Assembly (NCBI GenBank): GCA_013202295.1
Contig: JABMRT010000138.1
Span: 1 to 44,960, forward strand
Source of the DNA: Candidatus Zhuqueibacterota bacterium
Lineage (GTDB): Bacteria; Zhuqueibacterota; QNDG01; JABMRT01
DNA length: 44,960 nt
Reading direction: 5' to 3'
Part shown: positions 13,319 through 44,291 of the stretch, one piece after another
How the letters are laid out: every line of letters begins with the position of its first letter
How positions within the stretch are numbered: position 1 is the first letter of the stretch
The notes under the pieces: model-generated
What the model was told of the DNA's origin: nothing
What the model saw: only the letters and a program-made list of their open reading frames with translations
Databases searched by the model: none
Position numbers and translations under genes: made by a program

Positions 13319-13699
13319 TTATGATCGTGTAATTGAGTTGAATAGAGCCAGTAACTCACCACACTCAATCAAATCTTCTTGAATAATTTCACGATTTATC
13401 ATGCCACATTCAATCAGGATTTCCAGCCAATACTGAGTTTCGCTCGCCTCACTCTCACAAATTCTGATTTTATTTCGAAAGTCCGCTTTACTTCTCGCCC
13501 TATTCGCTTCTCTATAATTTGCTCCGATTGAAGTGCCTGACTTGGTTAACTGATTCCTCAGTACGCGCCCTTCAGGCGTATTAGGAACCTTCCGCGATAT
13601 TTTAATAATGTGAACGGCAAAAACCTTTGTCCGCTTTTCTAACTCCTTCGCAAACTTCTTCACATCATAATCCAAATTTCCACCCATTATTTTAGTCAT
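13319..13699 (-). CDS. four-helix-bundle protein (23S rRNA intervening-sequence type)
   Basis: Belongs by sequence to the small four-helix-bundle family often called 23S rRNA IVS-encoded or S23 proteins. Features are KRTKVFAVHIIKISRKVP, the conserved LTKSGTSIGANYREA (residues 51-65) and a helix ending SEASETQYWLEILIE. Function is not established; relatives are found inside rRNA intervening sequences and scattered in chromosomes. Here it interrupts the trp operon between trpC and trpF, in the same direction. The first ATG at 13699 lies in a copy of the trpC tail, so the next ATG at 13687 (MGGNLDYD) may be the real start. The flanks are very AT-rich, unlike the trp genes, which suggests an acquired gene. 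Confidence 0.85.
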   Translation of the reverse strand: MTKIMGGNLDYDVKKFAKELEKRTKVFAVHIIKISRKVPNTPEGRVLRNQLTKSGTSIGANYREANRARSKADFRNKIRICESEASETQYWLEILIECGMINREIIQEDLIECGELLALFNSITRS

Positions 13700-28118: not shown

Positions 28119-28691
28119 CTATTTTCCCGGCAATCGGATGGAGGAGGCTGCTTCCCTGGCCGCCGCTTCCTCCTTCCGTCGCTGCTCCTTATACGTTTCA
28201 CGGATTTGCTTAAACACATCATGATATAATCCCGCTTTGAAATCCGGGAAGCTCCAGGGATAGGACTCAAACTTTCCATTCTTGTATCGAAGCGTCAGAT
28301 CGGCCCAGATACCGAAATCGAGATACACCTTGTCACCATTGTATTTCGCTGAGGCAAGTACAACCTTGTCATAATCCAGATAGCCGGGATCGAGATTGAC
28401 TTTGCGCTCGCCTTCGACTGCCAGGCTGTCTTCAATGTCATTGGATTCGAGTTTTGCGCGCGCAAGCTGTTTTGGAGACACCAATTTCTGAACAGTCACA
28501 AACCTCCGCTGGATGGACTCCCCCATCTCAGACACATAATAATCTGTGATATCAAATGGCACCGGGTCACTTTTAAAATCAATGGAACTGAACCAGGCCT
28601 CTATCAACTCAAATGCTTTGTTCAGAAGTGTCTCATCACTATATAACACACCAAAAAACAATTTAACCGGATCGGCTTCAACAGGTTTCAC
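28119..28691 (-). CDS. DUF4416 family protein
   Basis: Matches the DUF4416 pattern: VKLFFGVLYSDETLLNKAFELIE at the start, the central PFDITDYYVSEMG, RRFVTVQKLVSP, then VNLDPGYLDYDKVVLAS and a C-terminal LRYKNGKFESYPWSFPDFK. No function is established for the family. It appears to start at a GTG (28691) with AGGA nine bases upstream, giving 190 residues. It starts four bases after the stop of the acetyltransferase gene, so the two are co-transcribed. The last about 20 residues are a basic/Ala-rich helix. Confidence 0.88.
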   Translation of the reverse strand: MKPVEADPVKLFFGVLYSDETLLNKAFELIEAWFSSIDFKSDPVPFDITDYYVSEMGESIQRRFVTVQKLVSPKQLARAKLESNDIEDSLAVEGERKVNLDPGYLDYDKVVLASAKYNGDKVYLDFGIWADLTLRYKNGKFESYPWSFPDFKAGLYHDVFKQIRETYKEQRRKEEAAAREAASSIRLPGK

Positions 28692-28695
28692 AAAC

Positions 28696-29601
28696 TTACA
28701 TCCTTCTTTTTATTTTTTCCCTTTCCCCGTTCACGGTGCCACTTTTCTTTGGGACCCACAATCCCAACTCCCGTTCCCGTTCCAAATTGGCCTCGAGCGC
28801 GGCAAGCGCCTCCTCTACACGTTCTGGGGCGATCCCGAAGGTTTCATGGATTCTGAGGTGATAATCTTTCTTTATATTATAATTGGTTTTCTTGTCATAG
28901 GAAGTCTCGCGCATAAAGGTTTTATGCACATAAACCATGCGGCCCTTTTCTGTGCGCGAGAGGCATAGTCCGTGCATGCCATTCCAAGCGAAAGAAGAGG
29001 TCCAGAGGCGTGCAAAATCTTTGGGGGCAACAGGGATATCCCGGAACTGGTATCGCCATTTGATCTCATCCTTTCGGAATGTATAGATTTCGTAAAGGGA
29101 TGTTGTAATCTGATAGACCAGCTCAACGCCTGAAAACTCGGTATCATAAATCCGGGGACGATTCTGCACCAACTCCATAGGCTGATTGAGGAGATATCCG
29201 GGATCGACCAGATATTTGATTCCATTGAGGATGACAACCATCGCGCAATGTGTGTTGGGCCCGTAACGCATATCCGCCATCACCGGATAGCAATTGTATC
29301 CATGCTGTTTTAAAATGGCTTCAAGAAAAAAAGTCAGCGCAAAACAGGTGCCCCCAAGATGAAACCGCGCATGATCCTCCATCACCTCTTCAGGCAGTCG
29401 AATTTTCTCTGATACATCATCGAACTGATGATGTTTGATGATCTTGCTTAGATTTTCATAGGGGATTTGGGAGTAGTGTGAAAGGATTTCCTTCAGCAAT
29501 TCGATATCCGGTTTTTCGCGGGAAATCGAAAAATGTTTGCGGAATGCCGACACGGCTTCCGGATGTGGATCGAACTTCAGAATAGGTGTTTGATCGCTCA
29601 T
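28696..29601 (-). CDS. arylamine N-acetyltransferase family protein
   Basis: Transfers acetyl from acetyl-CoA to arylamines or related amines and hydrazines. The Cys-His-Asp triad is visible: C86 in HLGGTCFAL, H118 in NTHCAMVV and D133 in LVDPGYL. The N-terminal IPYENLSK segment is typical of NATs. At 301 residues it is a little longer than usual (about 270-280), the extra residues being a charged C-terminal tail. It forms an operon with the DUF4416 gene. The natural substrate is unknown, and some NAT-like proteins act in secondary metabolite assembly. Confidence 0.85.
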   Translation of the reverse strand: MSDQTPILKFDPHPEAVSAFRKHFSISREKPDIELLKEILSHYSQIPYENLSKIIKHHQFDDVSEKIRLPEEVMEDHARFHLGGTCFALTFFLEAILKQHGYNCYPVMADMRYGPNTHCAMVVILNGIKYLVDPGYLLNQPMELVQNRPRIYDTEFSGVELVYQITTSLYEIYTFRKDEIKWRYQFRDIPVAPKDFARLWTSSFAWNGMHGLCLSRTEKGRMVYVHKTFMRETSYDKKTNYNIKKDYHLRIHETFGIAPERVEEALAALEANLERERELGLWVPKKSGTVNGEREKIKRRM

Positions 29602-29635
29602 GAAATGGTTAATTCTAATAATAAGGGTTGGGACA

Positions 29636-31609
29636 TTATTTGAATTTTTTCTCTTGTATTGTGGCTTTAATGGTTTTCAGCATCAAACCCAGATTATAGG
29701 GTTTAGGAAGAAAGGGATACCCTTTTCGCTCAATGATTGGCCACTGTGATTTATGATCGGTATACCCGCTTGTTAATAGAACGGGAGTATCCGGTTTCTC
29801 TTTTAACAACCGATCAAGCAAGATCAGCCCATTCTCATCAGGCAACACCACATCACTGAAAACCAGATCAAATTCTCCGTCCTCGCGAAGAAAGATATTG
29901 AGCGCCTCTGCTGAGTTGCCGGCAGTTAATACCTGATATCCATGTTTTGTCAGAGCTGAACGTACAAAATCACGCAGACCATCCTCATCTTCAACCACAA
30001 GAATGCGTTCACCCTTTCCTTTGAGAGCCTCCAGATCATAGCTTTCTTCTTCGGTACTCACCGGCTCTTCATGGACTGATGGAAAATAAACATCAAAAGA
30101 GGATCCCACATCCATCTCGGATGTCACATCAATCCAGCCTTCATGCTGCGATACAATGCCATAAACCACGGAAAGCCCCAATCCGGTTCCCTGGCCAGGT
30201 CCTTTGGTGCTGAAGAATGGTTCAAAAATATGCTGCGTGGTCATTTCATTCATGCCGACACCCGTATCAGTCAATGTCAACCGCACAAATTGTCCGGCAC
30301 GGGCTTCCGGTACATGCTGGATAGAATCCTGATCGAGTATCACATTCTCCGTGCGTATAATCAGGTCCCCGCCACTGGGCATCGCGTCACGCGCGTTGAC
30401 CGCAAGATTCATGATGACCTGTTCAATGGTTCCCCGATCCGCACGGATAGTCCATAAATTATTAGCCAGCATGGTATTGATACCGACATCCTCACCAATC
30501 AGTCGGTGAAGCATTTTGAGAACATCAGTAATTATACGATTCAAGTTTAATGGTATGAATTGTGTGGGATGTTTCCGGCTGAACAAGAGCAGCTGATGTG
30601 TCAGATCTGCGGCACGGCCTGCTGCCACCTGAACCTCTCGTAAATCATGGTAAATCGGATTGTCTTTTTCCACACGCATAATCGCCATATCCGTACACCC
30701 GTGTATGGCAGTCAATAAATTATTAAAATCGTGTGCCACGCCACCGGTCAGGCGGCCAATCGCATCCATCTTTTGGACTTGGAGCAGTTGATCTTGCATG
30801 CGTGTCCGTTCCTGTTCCACGATTTTATTTTCCGTGATATCTACAGAGACCGAGAGCACGCAATTCGAATCTCCCCGAACAGTCAGTGGAATTTTCGTGG
30901 TTTGAAAGTATCGTTTCGAGTCATCTTTCAGAGTAAATACTTCGTCATTGATTTGCAGGGCTTGTTTTGTCTCGATCACTTCATTATCTTCCTCAATACA
31001 TTTCTCTGCCTCTTTGATTCTTGCTTCGGAGTAATTAGCAAAATCCAATTCTCGTTTATCAATCATGTATGAGGGTGTGGTCTCACGCAAATCAGCCGCA
31101 CTTTGATTGGTAAGAATGATCTGTCCCTTTTTATCCTTTACAATGATATTCGCGGGCGTCGTATCAATTACCATGCGCAATAATTCCTGATTGTCTCGCA
31201 AGGCCTGTTCTGCCGCGCGCCGCTCTTTTCTTCCATCGGTTTCTCTCAGCTCGCGTTCAATCGCGGGAATCAGACGGCCCAGCTGATCTTTCATGATATA
31301 ATCATGCGCGCCCGCTCTCATTGCCTCAACAGCAGTTTCTTCTCCGATAGCGCCAGAAAGGATAATAAAAGGCAAATCGATATTGACATCATGCAACACA
31401 TTCAATGCGGCAGGCGCACTGAATCTCGGTAAATTATAATCGGCAATTACAACATCCCAAGCCTTTTGATTTAGTGCTCTCCGCATCTCGGGCTCAGTTT
31501 CAACCCGTTCATGTTCAATCTTATAATCGCTCTTTTTTAATTCGTGCAGGAGAAGAAAAGCATCATCTTCTGAGTCTTCGACAAGTAACAGGCGCAATAA
31601 TTTTTTCAT
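29636..31609 (-). CDS. hybrid histidine kinase, REC-PAS-HisKA-HATPase-REC
   Basis: Soluble sensor kinase with no membrane segment. Order: receiver (1-125, phospho-acceptor D57 in VVIADYNLP), PAS (about 140-265), dimerisation helix with H293 in GGVAHDFNNLL, ATPase domain (N405 in NLAVNARDAM, DTGVGM, GTGLGLSVVYG) and a C-terminal receiver (from about 535, D586 in LVFSDVVLP). The N-terminal receiver means it can be driven by another kinase. The C-terminal SGYTDHKSQWP signature is shared with the kinases at 31869 and 38889, so they are paralogs. GGAG lies nine bases before the ATG. Ligand unknown. Confidence 0.95.
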   Translation of the reverse strand: MKKLLRLLLVEDSEDDAFLLLHELKKSDYKIEHERVETEPEMRRALNQKAWDVVIADYNLPRFSAPAALNVLHDVNIDLPFIILSGAIGEETAVEAMRAGAHDYIMKDQLGRLIPAIERELRETDGRKERRAAEQALRDNQELLRMVIDTTPANIIVKDKKGQIILTNQSAADLRETTPSYMIDKRELDFANYSEARIKEAEKCIEEDNEVIETKQALQINDEVFTLKDDSKRYFQTTKIPLTVRGDSNCVLSVSVDITENKIVEQERTRMQDQLLQVQKMDAIGRLTGGVAHDFNNLLTAIHGCTDMAIMRVEKDNPIYHDLREVQVAAGRAADLTHQLLLFSRKHPTQFIPLNLNRIITDVLKMLHRLIGEDVGINTMLANNLWTIRADRGTIEQVIMNLAVNARDAMPSGGDLIIRTENVILDQDSIQHVPEARAGQFVRLTLTDTGVGMNEMTTQHIFEPFFSTKGPGQGTGLGLSVVYGIVSQHEGWIDVTSEMDVGSSFDVYFPSVHEEPVSTEEESYDLEALKGKGERILVVEDEDGLRDFVRSALTKHGYQVLTAGNSAEALNIFLREDGEFDLVFSDVVLPDENGLILLDRLLKEKPDTPVLLTSGYTDHKSQWPIIERKGYPFLPKPYNLGLMLKTIKATIQEKKFK

Positions 31610-31634
31610 AAAAAGGTTCTCCGTACACGTAACG

Positions 31635-31649
31635 ATCTAAAAATTAGAT
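31635..31649. promoter_or_regulatory. short palindrome upstream of a hybrid kinase
   Basis: The sequence atctaaaaattagat (six-base arms) lies 26 bases upstream of the kinase start. It could be an operator or chance in AT-rich DNA. Confidence 0.25.
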
Positions 31650-31868
31650 TCATTCACATGGATTTAAATCAGAACTCAACCGATCAATCCTACGAATATG
31701 TGGATTCTACATCCTAGTAAAAAAATCTGTTGTTGCAAAATTTAAACCCAATCTTCTTATGCACTTACATCAGAACTGAATCAATGTGTATTCCCGTATT
31801 GATAAAAATTTCGCAGGATCACAAAATGAAATCCCCTGACGGATCCATCAAATATAATCGGAAAAATA

Positions 31869-33830
31869 TCAAACGACCGACTCTCCTTTGCTCAAAAACA
31901 AGACTTGATGGATTGTTTTAAGCAATGACCTGAGTGTATAGGGTTTTTGCAGAAATGGATAACTCTGCTTCTGAATTGTGTCCCATTGTGATTTTTGGTC
32001 GGTATACCCGCTTGTCAATAATATTTTGATTTCCGGAGCGATTTCTATCAATCTCTCTGCCAACTCTACACCGCTCTGATCCGGCAGCACCACATCGCTG
32101 AATACCATATCAAAAGGTTCGGATTCTGTCTCAATAAGAGATAATGCTTCAGTCACATTTAAAACAGATAAGACCTGATATCCATTCTCTGACAGTGCTG
32201 TAAGTGCAAATTCACGAACACCCTCAGCGTCTTCAACCAGCAAAATGCGTTCGCCATTCCCTCTCAGATCCTCAATGGATGATATCTCTTCTGACCTCTC
32301 AATTGCTTCTTCATCGACTGCTGGCAGGTAAATTTCAAATGATGTTCCGGATCCGGGTGCGCTAATCACATAAATCCACCCATCATGCTGTTTGATGATG
32401 CCATAAACAACGGACAATCCCAATCCGGTTCCTTGTCCAGGATCCTTGGTGCTGAAAAAAGGTTCAAAGATATGCGCCTTCACTTCATCATTCATGCCCT
32501 CACCAGAATCGGAAAAAGCAAGTTTGACAAAAGATCCGGTCCTTGATTCAGGCATGCTCATACATTGAGATGCATCCAGAGTAACATTGGCCGTGCGGAT
32601 TGATAATTTGCCCCCTCTCGGCATGGCATCCCGCGCATTGACCGAAAGATTCATCATAACTTGCTCAAGCGTTCCCGGATCCGCCTTCACTGTCCACAGA
32701 TCGCTATGCAGGGCAGTGCTGATTCCCACATCCTCTCCGATCAGGCGATGCAGCATTTTTAAGAGATCATTGATGTTTTTATTGAGATCCACAGGAACGA
32801 ACTGGGTTGGATGCTTGCGGCTGAAAAGCAGCAGCTGACGTGTGAGATCCGCAGCACGGCTCGCTGCTTTTTGAACTTCCCTCAAATCATGATAAATCGT
32901 ATTTTCTTTCTCAACCTTCATCAAAGCCATATCTGTACAACCCTGAATCGCAGTCAACAAATTATTAAAATCATGAGCCACACCACCCGTCAAAGTTCCC
33001 ACCGCATCCATCTTCTGAATTTGGAACAGTTGCGCCTGAATAGACTCTTTCTCTGCTTCCATTCTTTTCTGAACACTGACATCTCGAAAGACTAAAACCA
33101 AACCAAATACAGCACCTTTCTCATCCCGGATGGGTGTGGTGCAATCCGAGATAGGAATACGATGTTCGTGACGATTAACCAGACAAACACTATCCGGCGC
33201 GTGCCAGTCTTCCCTGGTTTTGAGTATTTTTGAAATGGGAATTGAAACTGATTCATCCGTTTTCTCATCTACAAATTTGAAGAGCGAATCAAATGTTTTA
33301 TCTCTGACTTCATCCAGAGTCCAGCCTGTGAGTGTCTCCGCAACCGGATTGATGAATGTGACCTTCCCATCACAATCCATTGTAATGACACCGTCACCGA
33401 TACTTTTTAATGTGCTGGAGAACCAGGCCTCACGTTCTTTTAATTGAAGCTGGGTCTGATATTTATAAAGCGTGAGTTCAATAACACTTTGCAGTTCTTT
33501 ATCTTCGAATGGCTTGAGGATTAATCCAAAGGGTTCAGCCTTTTTTACCTTCTCAATGGTCTCTTTATCCGCATAGGCCGAGACAAAAATCACCGGGATT
33601 GAGTCGCGTTTCCAAAGCAGATCGGCTGTCTCAATCCCTGTCATCTTTCCCTGAAGTAAGATATCCATGAGTACCAGATCGGGTTTATTCTGCCCGACAA
33701 ATTCAAATGCTTGCTCACCCGAGGCCACCGTTCCAAGAACCTCATAATCCATATTTTTTAATCTGACCTTAATATCTTCAGCAACGATTAATTCATCTTC
33801 AACCACCAATATTTTAGGTTTATTCTTCAT
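31869..33830 (-). CDS. hybrid histidine kinase, REC-PAS-HisKA-HATPase-REC
   Basis: Cytoplasmic kinase and paralog of its neighbour. The N-terminal receiver has D59 (numbered from the upstream GTG) in LVLMDILLQG and resembles those of two-component proteins with adjacent PAS. The PAS domain (about 138-260) holds GDGVITMDCDGKVTFINPVAETLTG. The phospho-accepting His is H289 in GGVAHDFNN, followed by HATPase boxes (NLSVNARDAM, GTGLGLSVVYG) and a C-terminal receiver with FSDVVLPDQSG. An ATG at 33830 after AAGGGTGA is favoured over a GTG at 33839. No DNA-binding output. The upstream intergenic region is long. Confidence 0.94.
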   Translation of the reverse strand: MKNKPKILVVEDELIVAEDIKVRLKNMDYEVLGTVASGEQAFEFVGQNKPDLVLMDILLQGKMTGIETADLLWKRDSIPVIFVSAYADKETIEKVKKAEPFGLILKPFEDKELQSVIELTLYKYQTQLQLKEREAWFSSTLKSIGDGVITMDCDGKVTFINPVAETLTGWTLDEVRDKTFDSLFKFVDEKTDESVSIPISKILKTREDWHAPDSVCLVNRHEHRIPISDCTTPIRDEKGAVFGLVLVFRDVSVQKRMEAEKESIQAQLFQIQKMDAVGTLTGGVAHDFNNLLTAIQGCTDMALMKVEKENTIYHDLREVQKAASRAADLTRQLLLFSRKHPTQFVPVDLNKNINDLLKMLHRLIGEDVGISTALHSDLWTVKADPGTLEQVMMNLSVNARDAMPRGGKLSIRTANVTLDASQCMSMPESRTGSFVKLAFSDSGEGMNDEVKAHIFEPFFSTKDPGQGTGLGLSVVYGIIKQHDGWIYVISAPGSGTSFEIYLPAVDEEAIERSEEISSIEDLRGNGERILLVEDAEGVREFALTALSENGYQVLSVLNVTEALSLIETESEPFDMVFSDVVLPDQSGVELAERLIEIAPEIKILLTSGYTDQKSQWDTIQKQSYPFLQKPYTLRSLLKTIHQVLFLSKGESVV

Positions 33831-34023
33831 TGAATTCACCCTTTACCTTCACGATACAAGGAAATGAATAAGAACACTGTAGATGTTATCTGTATCCATC
33901 ACAACCTCTGGATCTTAATTCTGGAGATATTTCTTTTAACAATTTGGCCAGCCATACACACAGGTTTCAGTCATTTAATCAGCCGATCCGAGGTTATATT
34001 AAACATAAGGAAATAATGCATCT

Positions 34024-34065
34024 ATTTCAATAATTTCTTTAGAGATATCATGAGGTTATTGAAAT
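34024..34065. promoter_or_regulatory. inverted repeat, possible operator
   Basis: Perfect ten-base arms atttcaataa (34024-34033) and ttattgaaat (34056-34065) separated by 22 bases, between the kinase gene and the peptidase promoter. It may bind a dimeric regulator. Confidence 0.35.
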
Positions 34066-34158
34066 CAGTGAGATGATAGTATATGGACATGGGCCATCCT
34101 CTGAATCAAGCGCGAGAACAATTCCTATTCAGGATAAGGGAATGAAAATGAATAGGGG

Positions 34159-34187
34159 TTGACAATTGGACAGAAAATTTTTATATT
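34159..34187 (+). promoter_or_regulatory. sigma70 promoter of the M23 peptidase gene
   Basis: Plus-strand TTGACA, 17-base spacer, TATATT. The predicted start near 34194 leaves a leader of about 150 bases. Confidence 0.8.
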
Positions 34188-34341
34188 TTCACACGGAGTA
34201 AATTTAATATTAATACATTAATCTTTAATCAGTTAAGCAGTTTTTTGGTCCACTATTTGCAAATCATATTATCAGTCTTTTGTAGTGAATGCCACTTTAA
34301 AAATAGCATAAACATAGCGGAGATGTTTTTCTTAACTGATC

Positions 34342-35244
34342 ATGAGCCTGAATAATCAATACATTGTGGCTATCGGTGAATCCGAAGGCAGCCATTTAAA
34401 AAGCCATATGCTTTCAAAGCAACGCTTGATTCTCTATACATTCGGCGTCATTCTCGGTATTTTGCTTTTGGCGATCCTCCTTGCACATACAATACTTCAG
34501 CTTGAGCTGGGATATCAATCTCAAGATCTTAAAAGAGAAAACAGTCGATTGCGTCAGCGCTTTTCTGAGTGGGAACAAAGGTTGGCTGAGATGGATGCCT
34601 CAATGGAAGACATCCAAAAAAGAAACCGTCAGATTCGTATCACCGCATCAATGGAAACACCAGAGATGGAATATGGTGTCGGTGGCTCTGAAAACACCCA
34701 ACGGGCCGGATTGCTAGAGATTCCCGATGTAATTAAAATTGAGCACGATATCAGCCGTTTACGAGCGGAGATGAACTGGCAGCATATGAGCACCGCTGAA
34801 ATCGAGCGTATCCTGTCCACAAAAATTCAGGAAATTGCCCATTATCCCTCCATACGCCCCGTTCGCGGCGGATGGATTACCTCTCATTTCGGGAAACGAT
34901 CCGATCCATTCACCGGCATTGAAGAAGACCACCTCGGACTGGACATATCAGTCAGACCCGATTCAGAAGTACGAGCCACAGGGGCTGGTCGGATAAAACA
35001 GATCAACACCCGTGTTGTAAAAAATAAAGGTTATGGCAAATACATTATTGTGGATCACGGATACGGATATGAATCATTGTATGCGCATCTCTCAGAAATC
35101 TTTGTCAAGCCCGGTCAGCGTGTGAAGCGCTGGGATCTAATCGGCCTCTCCGGAAATACGGGAAAGTCTACTGCACCACACATCCATTACGAAGTGCATT
35201 ATAAATCCAAAGCCACAAACCCGCTCGATTTTCTTCTCGAATAA
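34342..35244 (+). CDS. M23-family zinc metallopeptidase, membrane-anchored
   Basis: Probable peptidoglycan endopeptidase or LytM-type cell-wall factor. A short cytoplasmic N-terminus is followed by one membrane helix (about 29-52), a coiled-coil region (55-100) and a linker, then the M23 domain (about 172-300). Zinc ligands are H197 and D201 in HLGLD and H282 in HIH, with H249 in YAHLS, so it looks catalytically complete. The fold segment FGKRSDPFTG is typical. The strand differs from all its neighbours. No good ribosome site precedes the ATG (a GGAG lies 18 bases away), so the start is moderately sure. Confidence 0.9.
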   Translation: MSLNNQYIVAIGESEGSHLKSHMLSKQRLILYTFGVILGILLLAILLAHTILQLELGYQSQDLKRENSRLRQRFSEWEQRLAEMDASMEDIQKRNRQIRITASMETPEMEYGVGGSENTQRAGLLEIPDVIKIEHDISRLRAEMNWQHMSTAEIERILSTKIQEIAHYPSIRPVRGGWITSHFGKRSDPFTGIEEDHLGLDISVRPDSEVRATGAGRIKQINTRVVKNKGYGKYIIVDHGYGYESLYAHLSEIFVKPGQRVKRWDLIGLSGNTGKSTAPHIHYEVHYKSKATNPLDFLLE

Positions 35245-35349
35245 TATCAGTTCAACACACTCAACTTAATTAAATCTTCGAAAATGAATACATCTATACC
35301 AATGTGTATCGTGGTAATGGATGATAGAATGTTTGAGTGATGGATTTTA

Positions 35350-36303
35350 TCAGAGCTTCATGGACAGTAAAATCTTTAGCGATTCTCTGGACTCTGCAAC
35401 TTGAAATGCCGTTTCCCAGGCATTGAGTGGATAGATGCCTGAAATGAGCGGCTTTACATCAACCTTCTTTTCGACAAGCAATTGGATTGCCGGACGAAAT
35501 GGACCGCATCGTGAACCCACAAGCTGGATTTCATCAATGACCAGTTTTGCCGGGTTGAATTGAATCGATTCTTGCGTCGTAGATTTTAAAACGAATATGC
35601 CGCGCGGTTTCACACATTGCAAAGCTTGATGGAATCCATCTGCGCTTCCGGTGGCATCCACAACCACATCAAATCGCTGATCTGAAATTTGCGATTCGAG
35701 GAGTGTATCAACACCCAATCGCCGGACAAAATTTAATTTGTCTGGATGCCTTCCAATTACTGTGAGTTTACAGCCGGATATTTGCAACACCTGCGCGATA
35801 AGAAGCCCCAGTTTTCCATCTCCAAATACAGCAACATGGAACTGTGGCTGAATCTGAATTTGTTCGAGTATTTCACAAGCAGCCGCAAGAGGCTCAATAA
35901 ACACAGCCTCTTCATCGGAAATGGAATCCGGGATGAAAAATAAATTCTTTTCAGGTATGATGAGGAATTCAGCGAATGCGCCGTTATAATTCTGAATTCC
36001 CAGCACATCACGATTGGGACAATGACGATCCAATCCATTTTGACAAGCAATGCACTCACCACATCCAATATTGATTTCACCTGTGACCCGCTTCCCTACC
36101 AGTGCTGTGTTATCGGATTCAGCGATATACCCCACAAACTCATGCCCGGGGATTCCAGTGAAATTCATATATCCCTTGAGAATTTCAAGATCCGTATTGC
36201 AAATACCGGCCAAATGCACTTGTACGAGCACCTCACCCTGTTTTCGGGATGGGAACGGGCATTCAATTAGGGACAAAGATTTATGGAACTGGAGAGCCTT
36301 CAA
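35350..36303 (-). CDS. zinc-dependent medium-chain dehydrogenase
   Basis: Alcohol/sorbitol dehydrogenase-like NAD(P) enzyme. The catalytic zinc site is C35 in LAGICNTD, H54-E55 in IPGHEFVGY and E in FIEPLAA. A structural-zinc loop GCGECIACQNGLDRHC holds four cysteines. The Rossmann motif is VAVFGDGKLGLLIAQ. It has 317 residues, shorter than the usual 340-350. The apparent start is TTG (36303), with AAGGG ten bases upstream. It stands alone between the peptidase and the receptor-like gene. Substrate unknown. Confidence 0.88.
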   Translation of the reverse strand: MKALQFHKSLSLIECPFPSRKQGEVLVQVHLAGICNTDLEILKGYMNFTGIPGHEFVGYIAESDNTALVGKRVTGEINIGCGECIACQNGLDRHCPNRDVLGIQNYNGAFAEFLIIPEKNLFFIPDSISDEEAVFIEPLAAACEILEQIQIQPQFHVAVFGDGKLGLLIAQVLQISGCKLTVIGRHPDKLNFVRRLGVDTLLESQISDQRFDVVVDATGSADGFHQALQCVKPRGIFVLKSTTQESIQFNPAKLVIDEIQLVGSRCGPFRPAIQLLVEKKVDVKPLISGIYPLNAWETAFQVAESRESLKILLSMKL

Positions 36304-36506
36304 GATGAAAGAACCCTTGAAAAATGATCAATCTGAAACGACACGTGGATGAAAAGATATGCCCCTTGTTAATTGGAGTGGATTGATTAAAAGGTCAAAA
36401 TCACGATTGCCACATAAAAAACAAATTACAACACACAATGTTCTAAATCAAAAACCAGCATCTCCTCGCATGATTCATTTTTGAGAATAATGGATTATCA
36501 AATGTA

Positions 36507-38846
36507 TTATGACTGATTGTTCCCAACTCTGAATTTTGCCAAGAGTTCTAGTTCACTCTGAGACATCTGCTCAAGCAACTTTGCCAATTTTGTAACTTCA
36601 TTAACTTGAACGCTCATTTCCTTGGTCGAGTTGTTTACCGAATCCAGTTGACCGACGTTACGTTCGCTGACTTTGGCCACGCTGTCCATAGCGGAACCGA
36701 CCTGATGAGAATAATCTTGCATCCCTAAAATCGATTTCGAAATTTTCAAAAGTCGTTGCTGATCGGTCTCTACCAGATTTTTAATTTTATTCAAAGCCTC
36801 ACCTGATTGATCAGTAAGCTCCGCGGTTTGCTTGACTTCTTTAAGACCTACATTCATGCCCTTCTGCACATCGCCTATCGAATTCTTTACAGCGATAACT
36901 CGTTCGGTCACACGACGAGTAGCCTCTGCAGTGTTCTTGGCCAGTGTTCTGATTTCTTTGGCCACAACCATAAATCCGCTCCCGAATTCACCTGCCTTGG
37001 TGGCCTCGATTGCAGCATTTAAGGCAAGAATATTTACACGCGACGCAATATCATCAATCAAGTCAATGATCGCATCAATTTGATTTGAATGTTCACTCAA
37101 TTGATCGACAATTTCAGAAGTATCCGTCACAGATTTTTCAATCGAACGCATGCTCATAAGTGTGCTGTCCATCGCATTGATTCCAGACCCTACTGCACTC
37201 GCGGTTTCTTCAGACCCTTTTGCGATTCGTTCTGCTTCCTGACTCACCATATCAATATTGGTTAACAACGATTCAAGGGTTTCATGAGTTTTGGCCACTT
37301 GACTGTTCTGCGCGTTGATACCTTCCGAAACCGTATCGATTGCTTCATTGATTGAAGTAATGCCCATGCCGGCTTGATAGATACTTGTCGCCAGATTCTC
37401 ACTCATTTCCGTGAGCATGTTGGCCTGATCAATCACTGTATAAATCAGACCGCGCAAACTCGAAGGTTCACTGTTTGCTAAAACGACAGGAATGCCCTTT
37501 GCCACAACATCATTGATAATCGGCACCAATTCGCCGTATGCACCCACCATAGCAATTCCATCCACACCTTCCTCAATCAGTTTTTTGATGAACGGGGCAT
37601 ATGTCGCAACATTAAACAGCTTTGATCCACCCTTTTGCTCGGGCAATATCCATTCAGCATTCACATTATGTAGTTTCAATTTTTCAACTGCCGACAATGC
37701 GCCCTCGTGAACAGGATCCCAGAAAGCGGAATCTTGCCTGCCGAGTATCACCAATCGCAAGGATTTCTCAGGTGTTTCATCCACAGGGATTGCCAGACGA
37801 TTCAGTACCTCCTGAGATTGAACAATTCCTCGCCCTCTTTGCCAAAATGATTTGTAATTTTCACCGGTCACAAGATCCATTTGTGTAAGCAACCTCGGAA
37901 CTGGAGGTTTCCAGCCGCCTACGATATGATTGAATAAATGGATGAGCGGATCATGCCCCTGTGTATAAGGATCCTGACCCAAAGTGGCTGTAATCACACC
38001 CTCTGTGATATAGTTCATTGTCGCGTCGGTCAAATCATGCACTATGACTTTAATCTGACCCACTTTGCCCATCTCAACAATAGCACGTCCAACACCGACA
38101 GGGGTCGCGCCTTCAGTCACATAAATCCCTGAAATTTTGGGATACTTTTTTATCATTTCCAGGGCCTTGCGATAAGAGATCTCTTCAGCCTCATTGGTTT
38201 CATGAACTTCAACAATTTCAATATCGGGATACTTCTCCCGCAGCATACTTTCGCAACCCTTTCGCCTGAGCCTGAGACCGGCTGCCTGAAATGAACCGGT
38301 TGAAATACCTATTTGACCGTGGCCATTCAGAATCTCTCCCAGAACATCACCACATTTGCGGCCTTCCAGGAATGAATCCGCGCCTACATAGCAGAGTCTG
38401 GAACAGGGAGTCTCTGTAAGATGGTTGAATTCATCTGAAATCTCTGAGATCTCAGCGATCATATGATTCAACCCATTTACAACTGAGCCAATTTCAGTCG
38501 ACGGTACTGATTTGATCACTTTTGTCTTCATATTAAGCTGAGTGGATAAATCGCCTTGGGAAAGATTTGCGATTGCGGTCCGAATTCTATCGAGATCCTG
38601 CTTCACGATCTGATCGGTCATTTTGACAATATTGTTAATCGGTTGAACAGCCGTTCTTCTGAAAAGAAAAAGAAGAACGATGGAGAAAACAACGGAAAGT
38701 CCCAGTCCGACATTTCGCAATACGATCCAACTTGAAGCGGCTCCCAGCTGGCCTATGACCGTTAGGACAATGGAGACAAATATCGTCCATATCAATAGAT
38801 AAATTATACGATTGTCGAGCTTGAATGAAAATTTAGGCACCTTCAT
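36507..38846 (-). CDS. methyl-accepting chemotaxis-like protein with embedded, lobe-swapped sugar-binding domain
   Basis: The ATG at 38846 follows GAGGTGA (an upstream GTG is less likely), giving 779 residues. Order: two membrane helices (about 15-36 and 40-63) joined by a very short loop, a HAMP-like stretch (about 64-140), a periplasmic-binding-protein-type region (about 150-475) and an MCP signalling hairpin (about 495-775) with its tip at DDIASRVNILALNAAIEATKAG. The binding-protein lobes are in swapped order: the part usually second (YVGADSFLEGRKCGD ... LGQDPYTQG) comes first, then the part usually first (RLVILGRQDSAFWDPVHEG ... GIPVVLANSEP). The whole region lies after the HAMP, so it should be cytoplasmic. 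It is last in the receiver/kinase run. Its ligand is probably a small sugar-like molecule inside the cell. Confidence 0.88.
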   Translation of the reverse strand: MKVPKFSFKLDNRIIYLLIWTIFVSIVLTVIGQLGAASSWIVLRNVGLGLSVVFSIVLLFLFRRTAVQPINNIVKMTDQIVKQDLDRIRTAIANLSQGDLSTQLNMKTKVIKSVPSTEIGSVVNGLNHMIAEISEISDEFNHLTETPCSRLCYVGADSFLEGRKCGDVLGEILNGHGQIGISTGSFQAAGLRLRRKGCESMLREKYPDIEIVEVHETNEAEEISYRKALEMIKKYPKISGIYVTEGATPVGVGRAIVEMGKVGQIKVIVHDLTDATMNYITEGVITATLGQDPYTQGHDPLIHLFNHIVGGWKPPVPRLLTQMDLVTGENYKSFWQRGRGIVQSQEVLNRLAIPVDETPEKSLRLVILGRQDSAFWDPVHEGALSAVEKLKLHNVNAEWILPEQKGGSKLFNVATYAPFIKKLIEEGVDGIAMVGAYGELVPIINDVVAKGIPVVLANSEPSSLRGLIYTVIDQANMLTEMSENLATSIYQAGMGITSINEAIDTVSEGINAQNSQVAKTHETLESLLTNIDMVSQEAERIAKGSEETASAVGSGINAMDSTLMSMRSIEKSVTDTSEIVDQLSEHSNQIDAIIDLIDDIASRVNILALNAAIEATKAGEFGSGFMVVAKEIRTLAKNTAEATRRVTERVIAVKNSIGDVQKGMNVGLKEVKQTAELTDQSGEALNKIKNLVETDQQRLLKISKSILGMQDYSHQVGSAMDSVAKVSERNVGQLDSVNNSTKEMSVQVNEVTKLAKLLEQMSQSELELLAKFRVGNNQS

Positions 38847-38888
38847 TAGATTCACCTCACTTGGTGATGGACATTAACAATTTCAATA

Positions 38889-40457
38889 TTATACTGCCTT
38901 CTTTACAGCTTTCAATAGATCTACATAAGCATAAGGTTTTTGTAGAAATGGATACCCCTTCTCCACGATAACCGGCCATTGCGATTTATGGTCCGTATAT
39001 CCACTGCTCACCAGTACTTTTTGATCTTCTTTTTTCTCAATAACATATCGAATCAAATCCAATCCGGTTCGGTCTGGAAGAACCACATCGGTAATTATCA
39101 GATCAAATTGCCCTTTTTCATGATCATACATCTGAATGGCCTCAGACACAGTCGCTGCAGCGGTAACCTGATATCCATTTTCTCTTAAGGCCAATGATGC
39201 AAATTCCCGCACTCCTTCTGAATCTTCGACTATTAATAAACGCTTGCCTTCGCCTTGCAATGAGTCAATTGAAATTTGCTCATCCTCTTCACTTACTTTT
39301 TGATCCACAGCAGGAATATAGATATCAAATGTGGTTCCTTTTCCAATCTGGGTCTGAATATCCATCCAGCCCTCGTGCTGTTTGATTATTCCATAAACTA
39401 CCGACAAACCCAGGCCTGTTCCCTTACCAAGTCCTTTGGAGCTGAAAAACGGTTCGAAAATATGTTCGAGCAAATCTTCCGGAATCCCCACTCCTGTATC
39501 TGAAAAACGCAATCGTATAAAATTACCTGCCCTGAATTCCGGCTTGCCTTTGCATGCCTCAGCATTTATTTTAATATTATCAGTATTAATATCAATTTTC
39601 CCACCCTCTGGCATTGCATCTCTGGCGTTGACTGTCAAATTCAGGATCACCTGTTCCATTGTGCCTTTGTCAGCGCGGATTGAAGTAAGTTCAGAATCAA
39701 GCGAAGTTTGTATTTCAATATCCTCACCGATAATTCGATGCACCATCACAAGTAAATCGCCAATAACCTTATTCAGATTAAGAACCTGGAAATTGGTAGG
39801 ATGTCTACGACTAAAGAGCAGCATCTGCCGGGTTAAATCAGCGGCGCTCGATGCGGCAAAACGAATTTGTTTTAATGCCCTGTAGTTCGGATTTGATTCC
39901 TCCGTCTTCATCATAATCACATCAGTAAATCCCTGGATTGCGGTCATTAGATTATTGAAGTCATGCGCGATTCCGCCTGCTAGAGTTCCAATGGCTTCCA
40001 TTTTCTGCGACTGATGAAGCTGCTCCTGAATCTGGTCTTTTTCTTCCTCGCTGTGTTTACGTTCGATGGCATAATGCATCGCGCGTTTCAATAGATTGCT
40101 GTCCACCTGCCCTTTGACTAAATAATCTTGTGCGCCTTCAGACACAGCTTGTATGGCCACGGATTGATCGTCAAGACCACTGAGAACAATGATAGGCAAT
40201 TGTTGCCCCTTGGCCTTGGCTTGTCTGAATGTCTTAAGACCGGTGCTGTCTGGAAGGGACAGATCAAGGAGACAAACAGCACATTCTGACTCAATCATCT
40301 TATCCAGTCCCTCTGACAGGGATTGGGCCCATATAATCTCATATTGGACGCCTTCAGGTCCCATTGAATTCTTGTCTTGAAGCATTTCATGAATCAGTCT
40401 GGCATCAGGCTGATGATCTTCAATAAGGAGGACATTCAGTTTCTGCGATTGTTTCAT
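38889..40457 (-). CDS. hybrid histidine kinase, REC-HisKA-HATPase-REC
   Basis: Cytoplasmic kinase without a PAS domain. The N-terminal receiver carries D65 in VCLLDLSLPD, a coiled segment leads to H165 in GGIAHDFNNL, then the ATPase boxes (NLTVNARDAMP, GTGLGLSVVYG) and a C-terminal receiver (IITDVVLPDRTG). It shares the SGYTDHKSQWP C-terminal signature with the kinases at 29636 and 31869. Its N-terminal receiver is instead close to that of the kinase at 42234 (LSGLDD, AIQAVSEGAQDYL against ALQAVRSGAQDYL), so the gene looks like a recombinant of both types. The receptor-like gene follows by 42 bases. Confidence 0.95.
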   Translation of the reverse strand: MKQSQKLNVLLIEDHQPDARLIHEMLQDKNSMGPEGVQYEIIWAQSLSEGLDKMIESECAVCLLDLSLPDSTGLKTFRQAKAKGQQLPIIVLSGLDDQSVAIQAVSEGAQDYLVKGQVDSNLLKRAMHYAIERKHSEEEKDQIQEQLHQSQKMEAIGTLAGGIAHDFNNLMTAIQGFTDVIMMKTEESNPNYRALKQIRFAASSAADLTRQMLLFSRRHPTNFQVLNLNKVIGDLLVMVHRIIGEDIEIQTSLDSELTSIRADKGTMEQVILNLTVNARDAMPEGGKIDINTDNIKINAEACKGKPEFRAGNFIRLRFSDTGVGIPEDLLEHIFEPFFSSKGLGKGTGLGLSVVYGIIKQHEGWMDIQTQIGKGTTFDIYIPAVDQKVSEEDEQISIDSLQGEGKRLLIVEDSEGVREFASLALRENGYQVTAAATVSEAIQMYDHEKGQFDLIITDVVLPDRTGLDLIRYVIEKKEDQKVLVSSGYTDHKSQWPVIVEKGYPFLQKPYAYVDLLKAVKKAV

Positions 40458-40489
40458 ACAATACCCTTGTATCTAAATTCTCATGCAAT

Positions 40490-40888
40490 TTATGTGGATT
40501 GAGGTAATTCCCGTGCTAATATTTTCTCAATGACATCCAGGATTATCTCTGCCCGTGTTGTTTTTACAATAAATGCATCAGCGCCGCATCGCTTGGCAAG
40601 TTCTTCATCTTCATCCAGATCACGAGATGTGAGTACAATGACTGGTATATGCTTAAACTTTTTATCAAATTTAATCATACGGCATATCTTGTGTCCGTCC
40701 AGACCTGGCAACATAATGTCCGTAATTACTAGATCTGGATTTGAAGTCCGGACTGCCGCAAGCCCTTCCAGCCCATCCTTTGCTACGACAGTGTCATACC
40801 CGTTTGCACTTAGCCGAATGTGTAACATTTTACGAAAGGCAGTATTGTCTTCAATAATAAGAATGCGTTTGTCTTTGCTCTCACCCAT
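40490..40888 (-). CDS. stand-alone response regulator receiver
   Basis: A CheY-like receiver of 132 residues with D57 in LVITDIMLPG, the acidic pair in IIEDN and the conserved Lys replaced in position by VKTT near residue 109. No output domain. AAAGGG lies five bases before the ATG. It sits between two receiver/kinase genes in the same direction, so it probably shuttles phosphate between kinases or acts on a protein partner. Confidence 0.93.
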   Translation of the reverse strand: MGESKDKRILIIEDNTAFRKMLHIRLSANGYDTVVAKDGLEGLAAVRTSNPDLVITDIMLPGLDGHKICRMIKFDKKFKHIPVIVLTSRDLDEDEELAKRCGADAFIVKTTRAEIILDVIEKILARELPQST

Positions 40889-40931
40889 TCAAGCCCTTTC
40901 TGCGGCTCTTGTCTGTCATCAGTTTCAAAGG

Positions 40932-41312
40932 CTATGCATCTTTGAGTAAAGATTTTATTTTATCAACAAACTCTACACTGTTGTAAGGTTTGGTGAAAAT
41001 CTCTGACACATTATATTCACTTGCCAAACGCTTGACTTCATCATCCACTGTCTTTCCTGTTACAATGACAACCGGAATATCAGCTTTGTTTGGTATTTTA
41101 CGAGTCCGTTCAAGAAGTGAGAATCCACCCCCAGCTGGCATCATTAAGTCCAAGACGATTAAATCATAATCATTTCTAAAGATTTCCTGGGTTCCAGTAT
41201 ATGCATCTCCAGCTATCGTTACTGAATATCCAACAGATTCAAGTCGTAACTTCACCATTTTTGCAAAGCCAAGTTCATCTTCAACAACCAGTATTTTTTT
41301 AATCTCGCCCAT
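40932..41312 (-). CDS. stand-alone response regulator receiver
   Basis: A single-domain receiver of 126 residues: VVEDELGFAK with the acidic pocket, D55 in LIVLDLMMP, the conserved Thr in VIVTGKT and Lys in FTKPYNS. Only about 43 bases separate it from the next receiver gene. No output domain, so a phosphorelay or protein-binding role is likely. Confidence 0.93.
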   Translation of the reverse strand: MGEIKKILVVEDELGFAKMVKLRLESVGYSVTIAGDAYTGTQEIFRNDYDLIVLDLMMPAGGGFSLLERTRKIPNKADIPVVIVTGKTVDDEVKRLASEYNVSEIFTKPYNSVEFVDKIKSLLKDA

Positions 41313-41359
41313 GTCCTACTCCAATTATTAGTTTCAGAAATTTAGGACCAACTCATGTT

Positions 41360-42148
41360 CTATTGTGATGACGTCGATGAATGGTTTTCTACATGCTCTT
41401 CAAAATATTTTGAATAGATGGTCTTTTCACAATCAGGACAAAGTCCATGTGTGAATTCTGCCTCGGAATTCTCATGGATATATTCTTCCAGGCGTTGCCA
41501 AAATCCTTCATCATTTCTAATTTTCTTACAATGAGAACATATTGGAATTAAACCTCGCAATGTCTTGATCATCTCAATCGAACTTTGTAACTCAAGATTC
41601 TTCTTTTCAAGTTCTTGATTTTTCTGTAAAACCGCTTCATATGTTGAAAATAACAAATCTAAAATTTGAATGCGATCTGATGTCAGAAAATGCTTTTGAC
41701 CGGCAAAGAAGATTTCAATTCCCAAATCAGCCCTCGGATTTTTTCGAAGTTCACGATTAACGAAAATATATTGGATATGTGACAGCAGCTCATCTTCGCT
41801 GTAAGGTTTCGTGATAAAATGATCGGCGCCGGACTCAAGGCCGTGAATAATATCTTTGGGATCTGAAAGCTGGGTAAGCAGGATGACCGGTAAATGCCGG
41901 CATTTTTTATCATGTTTGATTCGGCGACAAAGTTCATAACCATCAATACCAGGCATAATCACATCGCTTATAACCACATTTGGCAATCGTTCTTCTAAGA
42001 GATCCCATCCCTCTTCCCCGTTCTTTGCAATGCGAATCTTGTAGTTTTCGTTTTCCAGCATTTGTTTCAATTTGGCTGCCTGAGTCGGGCTGTCTTCGAC
42101 TATCAGGATATCCACATCAGTATTTCTTTTATAACTATTGGACTGCAT
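41360..42148 (-). CDS. response regulator with coiled coil and C-terminal cysteine motif
   Basis: The receiver (1-130; D62 in VVISDVIMPG, K in ITKPYSE) is followed by a region of about 45 residues of unknown fold and a coiled coil (YEAVLQKNQELEKKNLELQ). It ends with a module having IPICSHCKKIRNDEGFW and, about 25 residues later, HGLCPDCEKTIY. The paired CxxC knuckles make a likely zinc or redox site. This module recurs at the ends of signalling proteins (receivers, PAS, GGDEF proteins) in many bacteria, with no proven function. GGAG lies before the ATG. Confidence 0.9.
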   Translation of the reverse strand: MQSNSYKRNTDVDILIVEDSPTQAAKLKQMLENENYKIRIAKNGEEGWDLLEERLPNVVISDVIMPGIDGYELCRRIKHDKKCRHLPVILLTQLSDPKDIIHGLESGADHFITKPYSEDELLSHIQYIFVNRELRKNPRADLGIEIFFAGQKHFLTSDRIQILDLLFSTYEAVLQKNQELEKKNLELQSSIEMIKTLRGLIPICSHCKKIRNDEGFWQRLEEYIHENSEAEFTHGLCPDCEKTIYSKYFEEHVENHSSTSSQ

Positions 42149-42233
42149 AAAATTGGCTCCGTCAGTATAGTCCTATTAATGATTGTATAGCCTGAATCAA
42201 ATTTCGATTTATAATCTGGAATCGATTTCAAAT

Positions 42234-43754
42234 TCAAACGAACTGTTCGGATAATAACTCTTTCACTTTTATTCGCAAATGATTCCTTTCGAACGGCTTG
42301 TACAGGACTGGAAACACATAATGTTTGTCTGTCTGTTCAAGTCGTTTTTGATCCACATTGAATGCGCTGATGATCAATAAAGGGATTTGATTTGTTCTGT
42401 CATCCTGTTTTAGACGCCCAACAACTTCATAACCATTCATCTTGGGTAATTTCATATCCAGAATGATCATATCTGGATTATATTTTTGCGCCTTTTCAAT
42501 AGCATCTGTTCCATTTTGAGATGTAATAAATGTATATCCATCCTCAATTAAAAACTCTTTTATCACCTCAACAACTGCAATTTCGTCATCGACAATATGT
42601 ATTCTTGGGAATGACAACTTTTTCATAGCAAAGTAAAATGAGGTCCCCTCACCAAGTTTTGAATCAACCCAGATGCGCCCACCGTGTTTCTCAACCAATC
42701 CTTTTGCGATGGCTAATCCAAGCCCTGTGCCTTTATAGCCAGGTCCCTCAAGTCGACCAAACTGTTCAAATTTTGAAAAGAGTTTGCCAATATTTCCTTT
42801 CGCAATACCAATCCCTGTATCAGCCACTGTGCAGATAATTTCTCTAGCATTTTCTTTCAGACTGATTTTAACTTTGCCTCCCGATTCGGTATACCTTAAG
42901 GCATTGCTTACTAAATTCTGATAGATTTGAAACATTTTATCTTCATCAGCATAAAGCGAAATAGATTGATCGGGAAGTTCAACTTCAAAATCTATTTTGC
43001 GCTCGTTGGCCTGGGTAATATAGTATTCATAAACCTTCTTCGTAATCAAACGCATATCAACAGCACTTCGCCTTAATTTGATTTTGTCTGCTTCAATCTT
43101 TGATATATCAAGCAGATCTGTGACCAGACGGGCTAACCGGTCGATATTTTGCTGAGTATCACTCAGAAGTTCCTTTTGTGTCTCATTAATTTCTCCTGCA
43201 ACTCCGTCGAGACAAAGAGACACACCCTCTCGCATGATGGCGATTGGTGTGCGTAATTCATGGGAAACCGTAGATAGAAAATCGCTTTTAAGATGATCTA
43301 ATTCTTGTAATTTTTTGTTTGCTGTTTTTAGCTCAGCCACAATGCGTTTTCGTTCTATTGCATAGCGAATCGCTCTGAGAAGTAAGTACCCGGTAGCTTC
43401 CCCTTTAAATAGATAATCTTGCGCCCCGCTCCGTACAGCCTGAAGTGCAACTGTTTCATCATCCAGACCACTTAGAATGATAATAGGAATATCGGGAAAC
43501 AATCGATGTGTATTGGTAAATGTTTCAAGACCCTGACTGTCGGGGAGGGAAAGATCGAGTAAAACAATATCATAATCCGCTTCATTCAAAAATTCAATTC
43601 CCTCAACATGTCTGGTTGCACATTGAATTTCAAAAACCGTATTGATAGATTCATTCTGATTGACATCACTTAAGGTTTCCTGCAATAAACGTGCATCAGC
43701 AGGATTATCTTCAATAAGCAGGATTTTAATCTTTTGATTTCGCATCTTCGCCAT
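42234..43754 (-). CDS. hybrid histidine kinase, REC-HisKA-HATPase-REC
   Basis: Cytoplasmic kinase of 506 residues. The N-terminal receiver has D67 in IVLLDLSLPD. A linking helix (AELKTANKKLQELDHLKSDFL) leads to the classical H-box STVSHELRTP with H165. ATPase boxes are NALRYTESG, DTGIGI and GTGLGLAIAKG. The C-terminal receiver carries its Asp in MIILDMKLPKMNG. Unlike the three HDFNN-type kinases nearby, its H-box is the SHELRTP type, so it belongs to another kinase subfamily. The ATG at 43745 (MRNQKIK) is an alternative start. Confidence 0.94.
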   Translation of the reverse strand: MAKMRNQKIKILLIEDNPADARLLQETLSDVNQNESINTVFEIQCATRHVEGIEFLNEADYDIVLLDLSLPDSQGLETFTNTHRLFPDIPIIILSGLDDETVALQAVRSGAQDYLFKGEATGYLLLRAIRYAIERKRIVAELKTANKKLQELDHLKSDFLSTVSHELRTPIAIMREGVSLCLDGVAGEINETQKELLSDTQQNIDRLARLVTDLLDISKIEADKIKLRRSAVDMRLITKKVYEYYITQANERKIDFEVELPDQSISLYADEDKMFQIYQNLVSNALRYTESGGKVKISLKENAREIICTVADTGIGIAKGNIGKLFSKFEQFGRLEGPGYKGTGLGLAIAKGLVEKHGGRIWVDSKLGEGTSFYFAMKKLSFPRIHIVDDEIAVVEVIKEFLIEDGYTFITSQNGTDAIEKAQKYNPDMIILDMKLPKMNGYEVVGRLKQDDRTNQIPLLIISAFNVDQKRLEQTDKHYVFPVLYKPFERNHLRIKVKELLSEQFV

Positions 43755-43883
43755 AATCTAAAATTTAGTATACAAAATCGCTTGATAGTTTACAATGTTT
43801 TTTATCACTCTTTTAATCATCATACAACTCATACCACACATTATTGACTGGTCGGTAAACGAACCACAGTCAACCAGAAATCT

Positions 43884-44291
43884 TCAATGGTTTTTTACAA
43901 CTCTCATAAATTCTTCTAATTCCACAGGCTTTGTAATAAAACAATTTGCATGAAGATTATAAGTTTTCAATATATCTTCTTCAGCCTTTGAAGTGGTTAA
44001 GATTACAACCGGGATTTGACGGAGATTCTCGTCTGCTTTAATCACTTCGAGCACTTCCTGACCATCCTTTTTGGGAAGATTTAAATCCAGTAAAATAATA
44101 TCAGGTCTAGGTACATTATTAAACTCACCCTTTTTAAAGAGAAAATCAAGTGCTTCAACACCATCACGAACAACAAAGAAGTTGTTTCGCATTTTTCCCT
44201 CTTTGAAGGCTTCCTGAGTGAGACGAACATCGCCAGGATTATCTTCAACGAGCAATATATCAATAGGCTTTCCAGATTCTCGGAATATCAT
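43884..44291 (-). CDS. stand-alone receiver, Rcp1-like
   Basis: A CheY-like receiver of 135 residues of the Rcp1 type often found near phytochrome-like or other soluble kinases: ILLVEDNPGDVRLTQEAF, VRDGVEALDFLFKKG, phospho-acceptor D69 in IILLDLNLPKKDG, TTSKAEEDI, and the Lys in ITKPVEL. GGAGG lies five bases before the ATG. It is the first gene of the downstream signalling run, directly behind a palindrome at 44355-44371. Confidence 0.94.
   Translation of the reverse strand: MIFRESGKPIDILLVEDNPGDVRLTQEAFKEGKMRNNFFVVRDGVEALDFLFKKGEFNNVPRPDIILLDLNLPKKDGQEVLEVIKADENLRQIPVVILTTSKAEEDILKTYNLHANCFITKPVELEEFMRVVKNH

Follow-up and report, generated by a model that had tools for sequence, protein, structure and literature searches.

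Binding proteins of the Peripla_BP_4 kind ordinarily work outside the cell. MCPs with cytoplasmic sensors are also known, HemAT among them, and carry PAS, globin or other modules; to our knowledge, none of these modules is a flytrap. The receptor described here resembles these MCPs in having its sensor inside the cell and an MCP hairpin as output, but differs from them in that a permuted Peripla_BP_4 domain lies between HAMP and hairpin. The binding-protein fold is likewise used inside the cell by LacI-type regulators and by Peripla_BP_3-histidine kinase hybrids, though with the canonical lobe order and with other outputs. One such hybrid (L109:2509-6084) combines in a single chain a LacI-like binding domain, a histidine kinase, a receiver and an AraC-type DNA-binding domain, and adjoins a canonical transporter, and the sensor of a LacI-type regulator from a Bacillota MAG (L127:7386-8549) is a relative of the receptor's binding-protein group (motifs YVGQD and GQDAYTQGHDP). 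Chemoreceptors located in the cytoplasm are already known, as is use of the fold there (LacI), but no report of their combination, a permuted-flytrap chemoreceptor, was found in the searchable, open-access literature.

A natural circular permutation of the type I sugar-binding fold has been described in TpMglB-2 (Tp0684) of Treponema pallidum (PDB 5JX2), a 'Type Ic' glucose-binding protein in which, as in the receptor, N-lobe strands have moved to the C-terminal end and which still binds glucose (PMC4990184). TpMglB-2 is cut before N-lobe strand 4 (between strands 3 and 4), with its N91-equivalent at residue 19, at the N-terminus, whereas the receptor is cut at the hinge, after strand 4, and this strand (GIPVVLAN, residues ~454-461) lies in the C-terminal part. 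TpMglB-2 is also a periplasmic ABC-transport lipoprotein without a signalling domain, whereas the domain described here is intracellular and acts as the sensor of a chemoreceptor. Because both the breakpoint and the setting differ, the receptor permutation looks like an independent event. The earlier note had named a known non-permuted family with the reversed order as a possible counter-example; none came to light, and the sole known permuted family has this other breakpoint and a periplasmic location.

Among proteins in the canonical order, CUT2 sugar-binding proteins (L108, L109 and L113; 343-394 aa) share ~40-45% C-lobe identity and common pocket residues with the receptors and form their sister clade, but they are secreted, feed a transporter and are encoded beside ABC permease and ATPase genes. 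The best PDB sequence match for both lobes is the glucose- and galactose-binding GanP of Geobacillus stearothermophilus (6gq0, 6gt9, 6guq), which differs from the receptor in its canonical order and in being a separate extracellular protein.

Domain order of the receptor

The features of the receptor gene in the window (the whole stretch of 44,960 nucleotides that was analysed) are collected in Table 1. An alternative ATG start at 38846, the one used in the earlier note, is as plausible as the GTG. Hydropathy places the membrane helices at residues 17-35 and 44-62 and agrees with the earlier note that only a very short loop separates them. After the last of these, Pfam HAMP is found at residues 88-137 (E 7.5e-8) and MCPsignal at 571-729 (E 9.6e-32), and in a comparison with PDB chains 2ch7 matches residues 492-775. 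Peripla_BP_4 (E 2e-41) is matched in two stretches, the best being residues 152-301 to profile positions 94-244, and the full-length AlphaFold2 model has a binding domain at 155-460, mostly of high confidence. Pfam and the predicted helix positions hence both put the binding region where the earlier note had it, between the HAMP-like stretch and the MCP hairpin. HAMP was detected at E 0.001 in only 3 of 41 relatives and the first helix of the window protein is longer than usual; the helix that joins the membrane part to the sensor may thus work differently from a standard HAMP. Judging by gene position, the hybrid histidine kinase encoded upstream is likely to be an operon partner.

Table 1. 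Features of the receptor gene and its upstream neighbour in the window
Feature	Position	Strand	Details and basis
Whole gene, permuted cytoplasmic type I sugar-binding chemoreceptor	36507..38855	(-)	782 aa from GTG
Two membrane helices, residues ~13-37 and 44-62, tiny outside loop	38670..38819	(-)	Hydropathy; AlphaFold2 helices 13-37, 42-99
HAMP-like segment, residues 68-146, first helix longer than usual	38418..38654	(-)	Pfam HAMP 88-137; AlphaFold2 helices 42-99, 121-146
C-lobe part with canonical C-terminus, placed first, residues 142-340	37836..38432	(-)	Canonical profile 153-350, E 3.4e-62
Vestigial hinge-motif copy at N-terminal domain end, EFNHLTETPCSR, residues 142-153	38397..38432	(-)	Canonical TFNSETAEPNKR...VGAD
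New linker from old C-terminus to old N-terminus, residues 341-361	37773..37835	(-)	Alignments
N-lobe part, placed second, residues 362-469	37449..37772	(-)	Canonical profile 55-163 = residues 356-469, E 2.4e-20; 6gq0 chain 23-122
Second hinge-motif copy at C-terminal domain end, VVLANSEPSSLR, residues 457-468	37452..37487	(-)	Conservation; profile overlap 153-163
MCP signalling hairpin, residues 467-772, tip near 621, ~44 heptads	36540..37457	(-)	Pfam MCPsignal; AlphaFold2 helices 467-620, 622-772; 2ch7 alignment
Upstream hybrid histidine kinase REC-HisKA-HATPase-REC, 33 bases before receptor	38889..40457	(-)	Same strand

Circular permutation and its presumed origin

When the binding region was aligned with GanP (6gq0), the blocks were reversed, chain residues 23-122 corresponding to 358-464 of the receptor and 120-291 to 147-319. 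A canonical-order profile was built from 12 of the close relatives (secreted, 343-394 aa) that the alignment-based genome scan described below had also brought up, and the window protein matches it in two stretches, residues 142-340 (E 3e-62) and 356-469 (E 2e-20), agreeing with the GanP alignment on the reversed lobe order that the earlier note had proposed. All 42 of the 42 related receptors tested match the profile as ~152-350, then ~53-160; the canonical order of N-lobe then C-lobe is found in none, and the two stretches cover profile positions 53-350, that is, all parts of both type I lobes. The linker retains the canonical start (KPVDxxPxKPLRIAVLG in canonical proteins, IPVDETPEKSLRLVILG in the receptor). 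A whole fold with a single breakpoint common to 42 receptors points to circular permutation, and as far as sequence comparison goes the binding domain is a circularly permuted Peripla_BP_4 fold. Misassembly or chance was considered as a cause of the reversed order and is excluded because the order recurs in many independent genomes, among them that of the isolate Leptolinea tardivitalis YMTK-2, and on a complete Leptolinea plasmid.

An AlphaFold2 model of the domain, resting on few sequences (16 homologues), predicts one compact bilobed unit with a mean pLDDT of 86.5 and a pTM of 0.82, and not the two separate incomplete half-domains that would have spoken against the earlier note. Sequential alignment to canonical sugar-binding proteins with Foldseek gave ~180-200 columns at a TM of ~0.47, a partial match of the kind expected for a permutant, in which sequence order lets only one half be aligned.

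The earlier note had left a choice between a permuted and a recombined fold. Joining of two parts from different binding-protein genes, so that they merely resemble a permuted single domain, was considered by the TpMglB-2 authors for that protein, and the lobes of the window protein are indeed unequally diverged, the N-lobe being the more divergent half (64 bits against the profile vs ~90-120 in most relatives) and on a long branch. However, for each lobe the match to one and the same canonical family is far stronger than to other binding proteins, and when trees were built for the C-lobe and N-lobe separately they agreed, the receptors forming one clade in each (SH-aLRT 98 and 90, respectively), adjoining the canonical secreted sugar-ABC binding proteins and away from other binding proteins; in the C-lobe tree the joint clade of receptors and canonical relatives has a support of 97. 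Since the two lobes fall in one sugar-binding-protein clade, permutation is preferred, and with a hinge motif duplicated at the two domain ends and tandem duplicates occurring in the canonical family (see below) a recombined origin appears highly improbable. The lobe trees also led us to reject a fusion of unrelated halves. A further arrangement, in which the two parts are half-domains that pair between the protomers of a receptor dimer, draws on the dimeric state of MCPs and on a linker of ~21-25 residues that could permit such a swap, but the monomer model packs both parts as one domain (pTM 0.82). Moreover, the first part includes the QGHDP helix, an N-lobe element of RbsB-type proteins, and hence the two parts complete each other. 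We regard a swap as very unlikely and retain the permuted single domain.

The canonical hinge reads GIPVATFNSETAEPNKRLFFVGAD. In the receptors the domain starts with EFNxLTDxPCxRLCYVGAD, with the spacing of the canonical hinge, and ends with GIPVxTFNSEPxSLRxL. Approximately 8-11 profile positions are thus present at both ends, each of which keeps the hinge motif FN..T..P. Conservation among receptors is at least 90% for N144 and T147 in the N-terminal copy and for N461, E463, S466, L467 and R468 in the C-terminal copy. A hinge motif at both ends is the remnant expected from excising the middle of a tandem duplicate with the same cut in both copies. In-frame N-C-N-C tandem duplicates of the canonical family are encoded in two Anaerolineae genomes (L103, 721 aa, and L104, 681 aa); at the DNA level the two copies share 95.5% identity in L103 and 96.9% in L104. 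Being nearly identical, these copies are recent or homogenised and are not themselves the ancestor, but they agree with what permutation by duplication predicts. Both duplicates (L103:7440-9602 and L104:7533-9575) sit in CUT2 ABC operons; for a single chain to supply one transporter through two flytraps would be unusual in its own right.

A secreted sugar-binding protein may, then, have been tandemly duplicated to N-C-N-C, after which the central C-N portion, bounded by a hinge cut in each copy, would have been inserted once into an MCP gene and the permuted receptor would have spread between phyla. A single origin followed by such a presumed spread fits the lobe trees.

Cellular location, ligand pocket and signalling

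Secreted or periplasmic placement, usual for the type I fold, is not what is found here, as the domain is flanked by the HAMP-like helices and the hairpin. After the two membrane helices the highest 19-residue hydropathy is 1.46, too low for a membrane helix, and in two homologues (L080 and L136, Acidobacteria MAG) the frame starts too near the HAMP-like segment for any membrane helix. The predicted topology and these two homologues uphold the earlier note's claim of an intracellular sensor.

The usual receptor topology, with an extracellular binding domain, would suit the export signals carried by the canonical relatives, but the hairpin must be inside and no membrane helix separates it from the domain. 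To save this arrangement the MCP hairpin would have to be outside, which is not credible, and the homologues that have no membrane helix at all make it barely conceivable. Because of these two observations, the binding domain is cytoplasmic. Whether the flytrap still binds a small molecule is a separate matter. It could instead be a spacer, promote dimer formation or dock another protein, since HAMP and hairpin are already enough for a receptor, the ligand is so far a prediction and the N-lobe of the window protein is divergent. However, a mere spacer would not need the conservation across several phyla of the residues equivalent to sugar contacts. In EcMglB glucose is contacted by N91, R158, D236, N256 and F16 (PMC4990184), which map by motif to N461, R197, D274, Q294 and F378, respectively. 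All 41 receptors share R197, H273 and D274, and Q294, F378 and N461 are conserved in at least 90%. We therefore consider loss of binding unlikely and prefer a flytrap that still binds a ligand.

A re-ordered alignment was used to look for specificity changes in the C-lobe, the N-lobe part being too rough. At the position of H273 the canonical relatives have F or Y; conserved contact positions together with this replacement suggest that the sugar pocket has been kept but retuned. The window protein does not have the D found in most relatives at the ATxxxD site of the N-lobe, and given the divergence of that lobe its own pocket could be altered. From the retained residues, our best guess is that the receptor senses an internal sugar-like ligand, possibly a phosphorylated sugar.

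Genes near the canonical relatives were examined for clues. The relatives lie between CUT2-type permease and ATPase genes, near creatininase-like, URO-D-like, xylose-isomerase-like and sometimes sugar-kinase and corrinoid-protein genes. This mixture of sugar-type and corrinoid methyl-transfer genes, and the variation of the receptor's own neighbours by lineage, fixed no ligand. The canonical cluster is itself conserved (L108:255-7824 and L103, L104, L109, L112, L113, L119, L123, L124 and L126) and contains a CUT2 ABC transporter with DUF4380, creatininase-like, URO-D-like, corrinoid-binding, pterin-binding and xylose-isomerase-like genes. It looks like an importer of the sugar type tied to corrinoid methyl transfer, with O-methylated sugars or polyols as possible substrates.

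The sensor is thus proposed to be a type I Venus-flytrap (Peripla_BP_4, of the CUT2 sugar-binding-protein kind) set between HAMP-like helices and MCP hairpin. Because the cut lies at the hinge, both sensor ends leave from the hinge, and they would run directly into the HAMP-like helix ending at 146 and the hairpin helix starting at 467. Closure on an intracellular sugar-like ligand would shift the last HAMP helix relative to the first MCP helix, and this shift would change CheA activity through the hairpin tip. The protein has an MCPsignal hairpin with a conserved tip, and potential partners are encoded in the window genome, with five CheW-domain and three CheR matches over the cut-off. Two PilT genes are also present and flagellin was not found in this genome (completeness 95.65%). 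With this gene complement, the output may be pilus-driven movement or another Che-controlled response. We put at roughly 0.7 the probability that the window protein is a membrane-anchored chemoreceptor with a circularly permuted, intracellular flytrap sensor, for which the ligand class, coupling and output given above are putative.

Distribution, gene neighbours and implications

The window genome and its relatives yielded 16 receptors sharing 38-58% identity over the permuted region, and a permuted receptor is carried by 10 of 82 genomes of the phylum. A genome scan with a single protein gave no match; with an alignment as the query, 84,980 species genomes yielded 68 loci, mostly full-length receptors. 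These come from Chloroflexota MAGs, Leptolinea, KSB1 and Spirochaetota, and from MAGs filed as Acidobacteriota, Fibrobacterota and Bacteroidota. Homologues with the reversed order, for which the earlier note had suggested a search, therefore exist in several phyla. Peripla_BP_4 and MCPsignal were both present in all 41 full-length members scanned, and the permuted domain was not found with another output (kinase, GGDEF) among these 41 relatives or in 298 genomes of Leptolinea's class, only one of which has the receptor. The copy on the Leptolinea plasmid is annotated merely as 'hypothetical protein'. A 679-aa Spirochaetaceae frame, examined as a possible fusion, was rejected: it encodes a normal secreted binding protein that belongs to an ABC operon, and its length comes with a long open frame upstream.

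At two Chloroflexota-type loci (L066 and L070) the receptor adjoins a CheW-like gene and another MCP (dCache) in chemotaxis clusters, and in an Anaerolineae MAG (L102) it lies downstream of CUT2-type permease and ATPase genes. The receptor, an M23-type peptidase, an arylamine-N-acetyltransferase-like gene and a following small gene are neighbours in both the window (28119-38855) and L060 (7542-13480), which favours vertical inheritance within the order. Genes for hybrid histidine kinases and receiver proteins are densely clustered around the receptor in the window (29636-44291), including one for a 262-aa receiver protein (41360-42148) that ends in a possible zinc-ribbon (CSHCKK...CPDC). Elsewhere in the window, a small four-helix-bundle-like gene of the 23S rRNA intervening-sequence type (13319-13699), identified by eye, lies inside the trp cluster between trpC-like and trpF-like genes.

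Finding the same rearranged receptor in several bacterial phyla indicates a real, shared design, probably for sensing a metabolite inside the cell and not outside it. The broader proposition, a multi-phylum chemoreceptor family that senses intracellular carbohydrate with a naturally permuted flytrap and, the ends of this domain having moved to the hinge, passes ligand closure directly into the signalling helices, stands in our view at about even odds. If true, these bacteria would steer by an internal metabolite level using a transport-type binding fold and not an outside receptor, and the family would be a natural counterpart of engineered hinge-inserted biosensors. The canonical sister family and the tandem duplicates would likewise make it a worked example of permutation by duplication. 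Survival of ancestor-like, duplicated and permuted forms of one domain is a rare case, and through these three forms both the route to circular permutation and its use in coupling a sensor to signalling helices are directly testable.
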